The notes under the pieces were generated by a model, which saw only the letters and a list, made by a program, of their open reading frames with translations, was not told the DNA's origin and did not search any database. The position numbers and the translations under genes were made by a program. Source: Piscirickettsiaceae bacterium (GTDB lineage Bacteria; Pseudomonadota; Gammaproteobacteria; Nitrosococcales; Methylophagaceae). Taken from it: a stretch of 64,000 nucleotides of DNA. The stretch lies in the NCBI GenBank assembly GCA_024685995.1, contig JAIBDY010000003.1, forward strand, positions 1 to 64,000. Reading direction: 5' to 3'. The first letter of the stretch is position 1, and every line of letters begins with the position of its first letter. This document shows positions 36,535 to 43,140 of this stretch, piece after piece.

Positions 36535-36963
36535 ATGATTAACAAACACTATATCCTCGCCTCAATACTACTCATTTTTATCGGCAAACCTGCCATGGCC
36601 GATGAGGATCCGAGACAAATGGTCGAGTTGCCCAAGATGATGCAACAACACATGATGGCCAATATGCGTGATCATTTGGTCACGATCAATGAAATACTGA
36701 TTCACATGTCAAATGATCGACTAGATGAAGCAGCAGAACTAGCAGAGTCGCGCCTAGGTATGAGCTCATTGAAATCGCATAAAGCTAGTCATATGGCTAA
36801 GTTCATGCCTGAAGGCATGCAACAGATAGGGAGTGGTATGCATCGGGCAGCGAGCCGCTTTGCACTCAAAGTACAGGAAGGTGATCCCTTACCCGCTTAT
36901 AGAGTCCTATCAGAAGTCACTAGTTCTTGTGTTGCTTGTCACTCGGCTTATCGTATTCACTGA
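36535..36963 (+). CDS. Periplasmic cytochrome c'-like monoheme protein
   Basis: A 142-residue exported protein: signal peptide MINKHYILASILLIFIGKPAMA, a Met- and His-rich helical body, and one CVACH heme-binding motif near the C terminus (SSCVACHSAYRIH). A C-terminal CxxCH in a small four-helix protein is the arrangement of the cytochrome c'/c556 family. The function could be electron transfer or binding of NO; the sequence does not separate these. Upstream lies the 43-bp tandem duplication, which extends into its ribosome site. Confidence 0.85.
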   Translation: MINKHYILASILLIFIGKPAMADEDPRQMVELPKMMQQHMMANMRDHLVTINEILIHMSNDRLDEAAELAESRLGMSSLKSHKASHMAKFMPEGMQQIGSGMHRAASRFALKVQEGDPLPAYRVLSEVTSSCVACHSAYRIH

Positions 36964-38206: not shown

Positions 38207-38854
38207 ATGCCAATTGTCAGTATTTTTATCGTTTTCTTTATCTCTGCGTGTTCGTCAATGCAACAAGGGCAAACGCAGCATAACGTCTCAGATATCCCAC
38301 AGCCTAATCGTTATGAGATACTGCTTGATCGTGTCAAAAAACAACCCGATCTCGCATCAATCATCGCATTGAGACAAGTGTCTATTTTAAGCGATCGTTA
38401 CCCCATCAACACCACAACCGAACAAACATTGAACCAGCAATTGTTTAAGGCATTAGCCAATGGTAACTGGTCGTTGTGCCTTGAGAAGGCTAACGCCCTA
38501 TTAGCGCACAATTACATCAGCTTGAACGGCCATTATGGTGCGATGGCATGCAGTGTTGAGTCGGGTGAAATAGCGCAAGGGCAGTATCATCAGTCATTAT
38601 TAAATATGCTCTTGGAAGCCATTTGGACTACCGGTAATGGGGAATCACTTCGGTCAGCCTTTCTATCGACCAATACCATCGAAATAGATGCGTTTATCGA
38701 GTTTCATGGTTTAGAGCTCGTCCATCGCACCCTGATGCAGAACGAAGGCAAAGTATTCGATCTAACCACACTTAAAGATCCTAAAAGTGGTGAGCAGTTC
38801 AATTGGTATTTTGAGATCAGTACCGAACACCAACACACTCAAGCCATTGACTGA
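38207..38854 (+). CDS. DUF4919-like lipoprotein
   Basis: A 215-residue protein whose N terminus IVSIFIVFFISACSS has a lipobox ending at Cys15. The rest is soluble and helical, with NGHYGAMACSVESG, GQYHQSLLNMLLEAIWTTGNGESLRSAF and EFHGLELVHRTLM; the overall form resembles DUF4919 proteins but the match is by memory. It ends inside an 18-bp inverted repeat and converges on the ferritin-like gene. Function unknown. Confidence 0.7.
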   Translation: MPIVSIFIVFFISACSSMQQGQTQHNVSDIPQPNRYEILLDRVKKQPDLASIIALRQVSILSDRYPINTTTEQTLNQQLFKALANGNWSLCLEKANALLAHNYISLNGHYGAMACSVESGEIAQGQYHQSLLNMLLEAIWTTGNGESLRSAFLSTNTIEIDAFIEFHGLELVHRTLMQNEGKVFDLTTLKDPKSGEQFNWYFEISTEHQHTQAID

Positions 38855-38878
38855 ATGTATAGTCAATGGCTTGAGTGT
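38835..38878. terminator. Perfect 18-bp inverted repeat, bidirectional terminator-like
   Basis: Left arm 38835-38852 and right arm 38861-38878 are perfectly complementary, with an 8-base loop. The left arm contains the last codons and part of the stop of the lipoprotein gene. It lies between convergent genes; no U tract is present, so termination would be inefficient or Rho-assisted. Confidence 0.6.
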
Positions 38879-38889
38879 TAATCGCTTCG

Positions 38890-39177
38890 TTATGAATGCG
38901 CTATTGGCGTATCGGTAAATAGGTAATCTTTTAGCTCTTTATCCATTCGTGGATCTTGACGGCGAATCCATTCAAGCACCATCGCGGCATGTTCTTTCTC
39001 TTCGTCTCGATTGTGCGCCAAAATAGCTTTAAGCTCTTCGTTTTTACAGGCATCAACACGTTGGTTATACCAGTCTACGGCTTCAAGCTCTTCCATCAGC
39101 GAAGTAATCGCACGGTGCATGTCGCGCGTTTCATCGCTTAATTCATTAATCGGTTCGTGGTAACCTTCGTTAGACAT
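38890..39177 (-). CDS. Encapsulated ferritin (EncFtn)-like protein, no encapsulin gene adjacent
   Basis: A 95-residue two-helix ferritin-like protein. The segment MEELEAVDWYNQRVDA and HNRDEEKEHAAMVLEWIRR match Rhodospirillum rubrum EncFtn closely; by that alignment the ferroxidase residues are Glu30, Glu60 and His63, and entry-site Glu29, Glu32 and Trp36 are also kept. EncFtn oxidises Fe(II) inside an encapsulin shell. Here the chain stops at TDTPIAHS, with no cargo-loading tail, and no encapsulin gene is present in the flanking genes (bioA and a lipoprotein). It may work free in the cytosol, or the shell is encoded elsewhere. GGAG stands before the ATG. Confidence 0.88.
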   Translation of the reverse strand: MSNEGYHEPINELSDETRDMHRAITSLMEELEAVDWYNQRVDACKNEELKAILAHNRDEEKEHAAMVLEWIRRQDPRMDKELKDYLFTDTPIAHS

Positions 39178-39237
39178 TGTGCTCTCCTTGTTAATAAGTC
39201 CGCTTTGTCATCATCATAACGCGTTCTTGCAATAGCT

Positions 39238-40539
39238 TTATAGCCATTTTTCAGTTAATGCACCAATTATGGTTCCGATGGCTGTCGTTAACTGTGACAA
39301 TTCTTCGGACGTAATAATATAAGGCGGCATAATATAAATTAAGTTTCTAAAAGGTCTTATCCACACCCCTTGATCCACAATAAATGCAGGTAGCCAGTCC
39401 ATGTCTTCCCACAACTCTTGTGTTAACTCGACAATCCCTATTGCCCCTTTGACTCTAACATCTTTGACCAAGGGTTGAGCTTGATACGGCATCAATTCAG
39501 CTAATAATTGTTGCTCTATTGTTTGGACTTGTTGTTGCCAATTCGATTCAGTCAAAATAGCTAAACTTTCGCAAGCTACGCGACAGGCCAATGGATTAGC
39601 CATAAAGGTCGGTCCATGCATTAAGACGCCCTTGCCATCCGCGCTGATACCTGTCGCGACCTTGTCGGTACACAGGGTCGCAGCCAAGGTCATATACCCC
39701 CCAGTCAACGCCTTGCCTAAACAAAGAATATCAGGACAAATGTTCGCTTGCTCATAAGCAAACAATGTCCCTGTTCGACCAAATCCTGTTGCGATCTCGT
39801 CTAAAATCAATAGCACATCATATTGGTCGCATAAGCGTCGTACTTGACGTAAATATTCCGGGCAATAGATCCGCATGCCGCCAGCACCTTGTACTAAGGG
39901 CTCAAGTATGACCGCGGCCAATTCCTGATGGTGGGTGGCTATCAGTTGTGTAAATGTTGCAATATCACCTTGTTGCCAATCTTCGTCGCGTTGACACGTT
40001 GGTGCCGGGGCAAAAAGCTGTCTTGCCAACACGTCTTCGAATAAATGATGCATGCCATTATCAGGGTCGCTCACTGACATCGCCCCAAAGGTATCCCCGT
40101 GATAACCATTTCGCACTGTCAACAATCGACGTTTTCCAGTCTGCCCCTGAGCAAACCAACATTGAATCGCCATCTTTATCGCAACTTCGACGGACACTGA
40201 ACCAGAGTCAGCAAAAAAGACTTTTTGTAAGGGAGCAGCCGTGATGTCAACTAATTTACGCGCGAGATCAATCGCTGGCGCATGCGTTAACCCACCAAAC
40301 ATAACATGTGACATATCATCAATTTGTTGTTTTGCCGCCTGATTCAAACGAGGATGATTGTAACCATGAATCGTTGACCACCACGATGACATGCCATCTA
40401 CAATGTCACGACCATCTGCCAACCTTAACTTAACCCCCGCCGCTGACCTTACTTCATGCATCGGAACTGGTTTTATCACACTACTATACGGGTGCCAGAT
40501 ATGATGAGCATCGAACAATAAATTATCTATATTTTCCAT
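39238..40539 (-). CDS. bioA: Adenosylmethionine-8-amino-7-oxononanoate aminotransferase
   Basis: A 433-residue PLP enzyme that makes 7,8-diaminopelargonate for biotin. FDAHHIWHPYSSVIKP opens the protein, DGMSSWWSTIHGYNHP is the substrate region, and DEIATGFGRTG and CLGKALTGGYMTLAAT hold the PLP Asp and Schiff-base Lys. Length is typical. Other bio genes are absent here, so bioA is not in a biotin operon. It is transcribed away from the GCS2-family gene with about 150 bases between starts. Confidence 0.96.
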   Translation of the reverse strand: MENIDNLLFDAHHIWHPYSSVIKPVPMHEVRSAAGVKLRLADGRDIVDGMSSWWSTIHGYNHPRLNQAAKQQIDDMSHVMFGGLTHAPAIDLARKLVDITAAPLQKVFFADSGSVSVEVAIKMAIQCWFAQGQTGKRRLLTVRNGYHGDTFGAMSVSDPDNGMHHLFEDVLARQLFAPAPTCQRDEDWQQGDIATFTQLIATHHQELAAVILEPLVQGAGGMRIYCPEYLRQVRRLCDQYDVLLILDEIATGFGRTGTLFAYEQANICPDILCLGKALTGGYMTLAATLCTDKVATGISADGKGVLMHGPTFMANPLACRVACESLAILTESNWQQQVQTIEQQLLAELMPYQAQPLVKDVRVKGAIGIVELTQELWEDMDWLPAFIVDQGVWIRPFRNLIYIMPPYIITSEELSQLTTAIGTIIGALTEKWL

Positions 40540-40693
40540 GCGGCGATCATAACAGTGTTGCTAGATAATCTTTAACAAATTCATTCTTATCTGCGCCATA
40601 ATTCGATAGTGAAAAGCGCTTTCACATATTTAACTGACAATGTCACTATGCTATAACTATACGATAGAACGGTTTGGCTATATGGAGAACATC

Positions 40694-42127
40694 ATGGGTC
40701 AAGAAATTTCTCAGTCACATTTTGATGCTGTAGATTTTGACCGCTTTCATCGCAAACTCACGTCGGAAACACAATTGCTCTCAGAATGGTTTCAAAGCCA
40801 GGCCTTAACGCCAACTAAGCTTATTGCTGGCTTAGAAATTGAAGCTTGGTTAATCGACAAAAACATGCGGCCCGCCCCAATCAATGAGCACTATTTAGCA
40901 ACGATAGATGAGCCTTTAGCCAGTGCTGAGCTAGCTAAATTTAATATTGAGCTTAATACCCACCCGTTGGCTATTGAGGACACAATGCTGAGCCAGCTAC
41001 ATCAGCAATTACAAGACACTTGGCATAATGCTGCCAGCCATGCTGAAGCATTACGAAGTTCTCTGATCATGATTGGGATTCTACCGACATTATTGCCTAC
41101 TGATTTAACGATAAAAAACATGTCTGATTTAAATCGTTACCGGGCGTTAAACGAGCAAATTTTGGCCACGCAGGATTATGGCATTCATCTCAATATCACG
41201 GGTGAAGAACACCTTGATTTATATCACGATGATATTATGATGGAATCGGCTACCACCTCTCTGCAATTGCACACCAAAGTCCCACCTGCCGACGCACACC
41301 ATTATTATAATGCTGCTATTATTGCTTCTGCCCCGATGGTGGCTGTTTGTGCTAATTCACCATATTTATTTAACAAGAACCTTTGGCATGAATCGCGCAT
41401 CGCTTTATTTGAACAAGCTGTGGATATCGGTGGCTATAATGGTGCCTCGCAAGGCCCTGTCAAGCGCGTCAGTTTTGGAACCGGTTACGCTAGGCACTCT
41501 CTCATCGAGTGCTTTGAAGAGAATCTGGCGCACTTTCCTATATTACTGCCCGAGAACTTAGATACCCACTCTGATAGTTTCGCCCACTTAAAACTTCACA
41601 ATGGCACAATTTGGCGCTGGAATCGTCCTCTAATTGGCACCAGCGAGGATGGACAGCCTCATGTTCGTATCGAACATCGTACGCCAGCTTCCGGTCCAAC
41701 ATTGATCGATACCGTCGCCAATGCCGCCTTTTATTTTGGCTTAACAAAAAACTTAACTGACCTGTCTATTCACGATAGTTTGCCACTGCCATTCAGTCAT
41801 GCACGCGATAATTTTTATCGGGCTGCACGCTATGGCCTGAATGCACATATTAGCTGGTTTAATGACAAGCGCCAGCGCTTGCATCAATTAATTTTAGCGG
41901 ATTGTCTTCCACGAGCTCAGGCTGGGCTTGACGCCCTAGGCATTGCAGTTGATGAAAGTGAATATTATTTAAACATCATCAAACAACGCGTAGACAGTGG
42001 GCAAACTGGGAGCCAATGGCAAAGGCAATTTATGCAAAAATATCCTAATGACTTTGTGGCCTTAACCGAACAATACCTTTGCCATCAGCAACAAAACCGC
42101 CCTGTCAGTGAATGGACTTTATCATGA
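40694..42127 (+). CDS. GCS2-family carboxylate-amine ligase (glutamate-cysteine ligase-like)
   Basis: A 477-residue protein of the ATP-dependent carboxylate-amine ligase superfamily. LIAGLEIEAWLIDKNMRPAP (the acidic metal motif), FNIELNTHPL, DYGIHLNITGEEHL and VRIEHRTPASGPT carry the Glu/His/Arg pattern of GCS2 catalytic sites. It differs from GshA of E. coli and is nearer to YbdK-like proteins; the substrate is not known. The ATG at 40694 is preferred because GGAG stands six bases upstream; longer starts exist at 40640 and 40682. Its TGA overlaps the next ATG (ATGA), so it is coupled to an AstE-like hydrolase. Confidence 0.85.
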   Translation: MGQEISQSHFDAVDFDRFHRKLTSETQLLSEWFQSQALTPTKLIAGLEIEAWLIDKNMRPAPINEHYLATIDEPLASAELAKFNIELNTHPLAIEDTMLSQLHQQLQDTWHNAASHAEALRSSLIMIGILPTLLPTDLTIKNMSDLNRYRALNEQILATQDYGIHLNITGEEHLDLYHDDIMMESATTSLQLHTKVPPADAHHYYNAAIIASAPMVAVCANSPYLFNKNLWHESRIALFEQAVDIGGYNGASQGPVKRVSFGTGYARHSLIECFEENLAHFPILLPENLDTHSDSFAHLKLHNGTIWRWNRPLIGTSEDGQPHVRIEHRTPASGPTLIDTVANAAFYFGLTKNLTDLSIHDSLPLPFSHARDNFYRAARYGLNAHISWFNDKRQRLHQLILADCLPRAQAGLDALGIAVDESEYYLNIIKQRVDSGQTGSQWQRQFMQKYPNDFVALTEQYLCHQQQNRPVSEWTLS

Positions 42128-43140
42128 AGAGCAGTCGAGTGATGCAGCTCCATGCGATACCTAAAGGTCTTTTAGAATCTTCGCCTAAAGACTTACAAAC
42201 CATATTAACTGAACCGACATTAATTCATTTAAACGGGGTGCAGACAAAACCTCTCTTTATCTCTGTGCTTTTACATGGCAATGAACCAACTGGATTTTTA
42301 GCCGTTCAAGCGTTACTAAAAAAATATCAAGACCGCCCCTTGCCGCGCGCCCTTTCCATCTTTTTTGGCAATATCACAGCGGCACACAAAGGCGTTCGGC
42401 GGCTTGACGGCCAAGCTGATTACAATCGAATTTGGCCCGGTACGCTATTGGCCGAATGCCCTGAGACACAGATGGCAAGTGATATTGTGGCCATCATGAC
42501 GCAAAAATCACTGTTTGCCAGTATTGATATTCACAACAATACGGGGCTTAACCCGCATTACAGTTGTATCAATAAACTAGAAGCACAGTTTTTACAATTA
42601 GCGACTTTATTTGGCCGTTTTGTAGTGTATTTCACAAGACCCAAAGGCGTGCAATCTGCTGCTTTTGCTGAACATTGCCCTGCTGTAACATTGGAATGTG
42701 GCCGTCCAGGACAACAATATGGTGTCGATCATGCATTGGAATTTATTGAAAGTTGCTTAAATCTCACTGCCTTGCCAGATCACCCCGTACATCAGCAGGA
42801 TATTGACTTATTCCATACCGTGGCACAAGTGTGTGTGCACAATGATGTCGACTTTAGCTTTCACCGCCAAGATGCGGACTTGTTACTGAATGAAGATTTA
42901 GAAACACTGAATTTCACTGAAATTCCTACCGGCACCGTATTTGGACGAGCTCAACATAATTTCAACTCGCCAGTTATTGCTAAAAATGAGGATGGCTTAA
43001 TCGTTACCGACCGATTTTTCTCTGTTCAGCATGGTCGCTTGACCATTAATCGCCCCACAATGCCATCAATGTTAACTTTAGATGAAAAGGTCATCAAGCA
43101 AGATTGTTTATGCTATCTAATGGAGAGGTTGACGATATAA
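42124..43140 (+). CDS. Succinylglutamate desuccinylase/aspartoacylase-family zinc hydrolase
   Basis: A 338-residue M14-like zinc enzyme. LLHGNEPTGFLAVQALL gives the HxxE zinc ligands, SIDIHNNTGLNPHYSC gives the third His and substrate residues, and VTLECGRPGQ holds the catalytic Glu. A C-terminal beta domain follows (about 230-338). The family removes acyl or amide groups from amino acids. Being coupled to a ligase of the GCS2 family, it may act on that enzyme's product or a precursor, which is inference. The start (42124) is chosen from the ATGA overlap. It ends convergently 11 bases from iscA. Confidence 0.87.
   Translation: MKSSRVMQLHAIPKGLLESSPKDLQTILTEPTLIHLNGVQTKPLFISVLLHGNEPTGFLAVQALLKKYQDRPLPRALSIFFGNITAAHKGVRRLDGQADYNRIWPGTLLAECPETQMASDIVAIMTQKSLFASIDIHNNTGLNPHYSCINKLEAQFLQLATLFGRFVVYFTRPKGVQSAAFAEHCPAVTLECGRPGQQYGVDHALEFIESCLNLTALPDHPVHQQDIDLFHTVAQVCVHNDVDFSFHRQDADLLLNEDLETLNFTEIPTGTVFGRAQHNFNSPVIAKNEDGLIVTDRFFSVQHGRLTINRPTMPSMLTLDEKVIKQDCLCYLMERLTI

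Follow-up and report, generated by a model that had tools for sequence, protein, structure and literature searches.

The gene at positions 38890 to 39177 of the window (the whole stretch of 64,000 nucleotides analyzed here) encodes a short protein of the encapsulated ferritin (EncFtn) type. We consider it quite likely that this EncFtn, of the s-FLP / Non-EncFtn type, functions in the cytosol outside any shell and acts as a ring-shaped, detoxifying ferroxidase rather than as an iron store, a reading in which we infer the decamer, the activity, the electron acceptor, and the hand-off of iron. Its sequence assigns it to an already known tail-less class, of which it is a further member and not an anomaly. 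EncFtn is usually seen as cargo that is meaningful only within a shell; according to our survey, the shell-free form outnumbers the shell-linked one in the class to which the window organism belongs, and tail and shell travel together almost without exception. These results bear on the question of encapsulation that a 2024 review left open when describing the tail-less "s-FLP" class (PMC11202242).

The open reading frame lies on the minus strand, runs from an ATG start to a TAA stop, and encodes 95 amino acids ending in ...YLFTDTPIAHS; the assignment to the tail-less type draws on this frame, on profile matches, and on identity to PDB entry 3k6c. A ribosome-binding-site-like AAGGAGAG is located just 5' of the ATG (39182 to 39189, minus strand). 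Residues 6 to 89 match the EncFtn-like profile PF22277 (E = 1e-44; 150.7 bits against a cutoff of 27), and the NCBIfam model TIGR04535 scores 136.5 bits with a cutoff of 125. In the alignments, the helix 1 stretch (39067 to 39093, minus strand) carries E29, E30, E32, and Y37, equivalent to E31, E32, E34, and Y39 of Rhodospirillum rubrum EncFtn, and the helix 2 stretch (38989 to 39000, minus strand) carries E60 and H63 (R. rubrum E62 and H65). Both functional sets defined in the R. rubrum protein (PMC5012862) are complete: the ferroxidase residues E30, Y37, E60, and H63 (R. rubrum E32, Y39, E62, and H65) and the entry-site residues E29 and E32 (R. rubrum E31 and E34). The equivalents of these six positions are invariant across 109 tail-less and 24 long aligned homologs. 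An earlier note on this DNA had proposed a match to EncFtn at just these sites, and the two profiles and the alignment bear it out, with none of the six residues replaced. A search of a plasmid collection returned only seven matches, all of them distant (41 to 79% identity).

The same note had described a protein ending at TDTPIAHS without a targeting tail, which is confirmed by the frame, by a hairpin beyond it, and by homologs of 95 residues. The C terminus and stop codon (38890 to 38916, minus strand) include no GSL(K/R)-type targeting peptide, as judged from the sequence and from homolog comparison. An 18-pair hairpin (38835 to 38878, minus strand; z = -7.7), likely a terminator common to two convergent genes, begins 11 bases 3' of the stop codon. 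Since the hairpin follows the stop so closely and the next gene is convergent, there is no lost frame able to carry a tail. A frameshift or truncated tail, considered as a candidate explanation, was ruled out by the position of the hairpin and by the fact that 66 of the 109 tail-less homologs are exactly 95 residues long.

The assembly of the window genome comprises 1.84 Mb in 56 contigs, is estimated at 81.6% completeness, and contains a single EncFtn gene. The absence of an encapsulin gene among its neighbors, stated previously, holds, and it extends to the whole assembly at this level of completeness: neither the encapsulin profile PF04454, which detected the shell in three control genomes, nor the Family 2 SrpI-like shell profile PF19307 had a match. 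PF04454 was likewise absent from 28 congeners and from seven other tested members of the family. These searches rest on the two profiles, and shells diverging from both would escape them. Among 60 tested genomes, PF19307 was found in two, at G021:C17:31719-32456 and G161:C1:2460651-2461379; both genomes have a tail-less EncFtn, and one of them is a congener of the window organism.

We surveyed 370 genomes of the class and 59 relatives, in which 134 EncFtn proteins could be read to the stop codon. As many as 109 are tail-less, with lengths of 91 to 103 residues, and none of their genes has an encapsulin gene beside it. Comparing homologs with short C termini and their neighborhoods, as had been suggested earlier, thus yielded a large shell-free set, and it revealed a different operon link at loci other than the window's, which is described below. 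Tail-less genes occur in genomes lacking PF04454 in 103 of the 109 cases. Each of the remaining six genomes also has a separate long EncFtn directly beside a shell gene; because the two kinds are held as separate genes, the tail-less one is not truncated cargo. Conversely, 23 of the 25 long genes adjoin a shell gene, and the C terminus of nearly all of these 23 proteins is a motif of the G-x-L or I-G-x-L type; only those in G216 and in G271, where the shell-adjacent protein ends in ...GFTVGKP, deviate. The association between length and shell adjacency is strong (Fisher p = 7e-24, relatedness ignored). No shell was found in any of 55 EncFtn-free genomes. A set of 50 named genomes reached by protein scan served as a replicate, some of them possibly shared with the first sample; it includes Nitrotoga, Mariprofundus, Ghiorsea, Methylobacter, Hahella, and several Alphaproteobacteria, with Gamma- and Zetaproteobacteria also represented. 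It contains two shells (in records named Thiogranum and Thiohalocapsa), each beside its own separate tailed EncFtn.

Two unusual architectures appeared in the survey. One minus-strand locus (L138; G216:C227) encodes an in-frame fusion of EncFtn with the C-terminal half of an encapsulin (PF22277 plus PF04454 positions 116 to 252), in which S replaces the W of the EncFtn motif; it may represent a genuine bacterial fusion, a gene remnant, or an error of assembly. The two long proteins whose genes do not adjoin a shell gene (L067 in G380 and L098 in G106) are of the tail-less type but are extended by about 25 residues that are rich in Lys, Ala, and Pro and resemble histone H1; they lack a targeting motif, and their genomes have no shell.

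The premise that EncFtn normally works inside the shell therefore fails for the tail-less subfamily: of the 105 class-sample genomes that encode a full-length EncFtn, 88 have the tail-less form. Nor is the window gene an exceptional orphan: the 95-residue tail-less type is widespread and was already recognized in the literature (PMC5012862, PMC11202242). It also has a signature of its own outside the tail. Residue 71 is I in 94% of tail-less proteins and L in 95% of other EncFtn, and C44 is present in 96% of the former versus 29% of the latter; N38, A51, E81, and D84 are further signature positions. The C-terminal end itself, ..DKPIAH, is fairly conserved (K90, 80%; I92, 84%; H94, 79%). In our EncFtn tree, an unrooted tree of weak resolution (58 open forks over 83 columns), most tail-less proteins fall in one region, while separate tail-less cases (L104, L125, L131, and L106) are scattered among tailed proteins. 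The tail label changes a minimum of 3 to 5 times on this tree, and two of its long rows are of the Lys-rich type. Given these scattered cases, the tail was probably lost more than once among tailed EncFtn, as far as an unrooted, poorly resolved tree allows.

We propose that the two-helix subunits of the window protein pair to form a di-iron ferroxidase center at the dimer interface and that the dimers probably assemble into a ring decamer, as reported for its close relative 3k6c (PMC11202242). Oxidation of Fe2+ would then take place in the cytosol, O2 or peroxide serving as the acceptor, and the protein would serve as a detoxifying ferroxidase rather than a store. The ferric product may pass to other sinks, a bacterioferritin being encoded elsewhere in the genome. 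A single PF00210 protein is encoded in the window genome, away from EncFtn, and from its sequence we take it to be this bacterioferritin. PF00210 is absent from nine of 60 tested genomes (G004, G008, G009, G182, G193, G200, G326, G360, and G364), all nine with a tail-less EncFtn, which may be their only ferritin-like iron protein. A free iron oxidase, one of the possibilities raised previously, is thus the best-supported reading, with its activity predicted. Two points weigh against it. Isolated R. rubrum EncFtn oxidizes iron but does not accrue mineral (PMC5012862), which leaves the fate of Fe3+ without a shell unexplained, and the window genome is 81.6% complete, while divergent shells outside PF04454 and PF19307 would escape the search. 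We found no biochemistry of any tail-less member in the open-access literature.

The genomic context of the window gene suggests that it stands alone. Upstream by 60 bp is bioA (39238 to 40539, minus strand), which we do not propose as a partner, and on the other side is a convergent gene for a putative lipoprotein with weak similarity to DUF4919 (38207 to 38854, plus strand). Only two congeners (G012 and G016) share this context of bioA and lipoprotein gene; the others differ, and no neighbor of EncFtn is conserved genus-wide. These differing contexts indicate that the gene changed position in the course of the evolution of the genus; in the window it is probably a unit of its own. The best match to a Fur box 5' of the gene (10/19) is not above chance; over other tail-less genes, matches of at least 12 number 44 versus 22 in mononucleotide shuffles, a roughly twofold excess too weak to use. 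Farther out, the window encodes a secreted cytochrome c'-like protein (36535 to 36963, plus strand) with a C-terminal CVACH motif and a PF01322 match below the cutoff, and at 40640 to 43140 (plus strand) a glutamate-cysteine-ligase-like gene (GCS2) overlaps a succinylglutamate desuccinylase/aspartoacylase-like gene.

Elsewhere, tail-less EncFtn genes do have consistent neighbors. Clustering of flanking open reading frames followed by a targeted search identified 23 tail-less loci at which EncFtn is directly preceded by a gene for an Fe-S oxidoreductase (RFO; CCG domain, PF02754) and/or directly followed by DUF3501 (PF12007) on the same strand (L021, L036, L038, L043, L046, L052, L055, L061, L065, L071, L073, L075, L077, L092, L101, L105, L107, L110, L111, L112, L113, L116, and L206). 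In most of them, wherever the retrieved DNA extended that far, a rubrerythrin gene (RBR; PF02915) lies farther upstream, giving the order RBR - RFO - tail-less EncFtn - DUF3501. Intergenic gaps are mostly -14 to +67 bp, with a few up to 179. All but L206 belong to the class sample, where the arrangement occurs in 22 of the 88 tail-less genomes and in 16 families. Looser cases have DUF3501 upstream (L063), DUF3501 860 bp upstream (L040), or only rubrerythrin adjoining EncFtn in a genome without DUF3501 (L074). None of the three partners occurs at the 25 shell-linked EncFtn loci. DUF3501 is present in 63 of the 88 tail-less genomes versus 94 of 265 EncFtn-free ones in the class sample, uncorrected for relatedness. 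As a separate observation, several tail-less EncFtn loci (L040, L042, L054, L099, L143, L174, L183, and L209) have, no more than about 5 kb away, a gene for a thioredoxin-reductase-like protein whose N terminus is cyclic-nucleotide-binding-like; in four cases it lies within 400 bp.

The aerobic-type rubrerythrin module, in which RFO and DUF3501 co-occur with rubrerythrin, was described without mention of EncFtn (Cardenas 2016, PMC5114695), and we found no report of the link in the open-access literature, although a subscription paper is possible. The linkage fits a role in iron and peroxide detoxification. With somewhat less than even confidence, we suggest that the peroxide defense module of many bacteria has an overlooked fourth component in tail-less EncFtn (RBR-RFO-EncFtn-DUF3501), which would act there as a ring ferroxidase without a shell and couple to an Fe-S electron-transfer protein; the window genus would keep a stand-alone version. 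The operon link supplies concrete, testable partners both for shell-free EncFtn and for DUF3501. A stricter version, in which the tail-less protein exchanges electrons or iron with these partners and does not act alone, draws on the recurrent gene order, its absence from shell-linked loci, and the excess of DUF3501, yet we regard it as improbable. DUF3501 is missing from 25 of the 88 tail-less genomes, from the window genome, and from its complete congeners G010 and G012, and rubrerythrin, RFO, and DUF3501 do not co-localize with EncFtn in the window; the partnership is therefore not obligatory, and the module cannot be invoked for the window organism.

Less probable still is that the lineage recently lost its encapsulin, leaving the window protein as a relic on its way out. 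In this regard, decayed EncFtn copies (internal stops or fragments) were found at four loci (L028 in G017, L030 in G010, L140 in G067, and L139 in G392), the first two in the window genus, where G017 has an internal stop and G010 only a 3' fragment, and 8 of 29 genomes of the genus have no EncFtn match. The two broken-copy congeners, G010 and G017, have 2 and 4 PF00210 matches, numbers too small for a conclusion. However, the intact copies are strongly conserved with no catalytic residue missing, the tail-less state extends across the class, and PF04454 shells are absent from all congeners and from the tested members of the family; loss of EncFtn in some species indicates dispensability and does not prove shell loss. 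The earlier note had raised the option that the protein lost its compartment; a recent loss of this kind is unsupported, as the window organism does not differ in this respect from the rest of its genus or from nearly all its relatives, and signature residues such as C44 and I71 lie outside the tail. Least likely of all is loading into an encapsulin through an unrecognized signal in the last 10 residues (an option left open by PMC11202242): the ..DKPIAH end is fairly conserved and six genomes combine a tail-less EncFtn with a shell, but those shells have their own long EncFtn adjacent, and in most tail-less genomes such a signal would find nothing to bind.

He et al. 2016 already separated a "Non-EncFtn" group without encapsulin sequence (PMC5012862), and the window protein fits this s-FLP / Non-EncFtn type, being an EncFtn domain of about 95 residues without a long tail or targeting peptide. 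It does not fit encapsulated ferritin cargo (FLP-TP), as it has no GSLK-like peptide and no shell gene either adjacent or in the genome. R. rubrum EncFtn (Rru_A0973, PDB 5da5) shares its domain and all ferroxidase and entry-site residues; in contrast, that protein is 140 residues long, carries a shell-targeting sequence at its C terminus, and has an encapsulin as its partner, whereas the window protein has neither targeting sequence nor encapsulin. Other tail-less EncFtn genes lie inside the operon of the aerobic-type rubrerythrin module (PMC5114695), whereas the window genome lacks DUF3501. Nitrosomonas europaea NE0167 (PDB 3k6c), the best relative of solved structure, differs in having L at the W36 position and R at the M28 position, but it is likewise 95 residues long, is 82% identical to the window protein over 94 residues, and has the same FTxxPIAH end without a targeting peptide.
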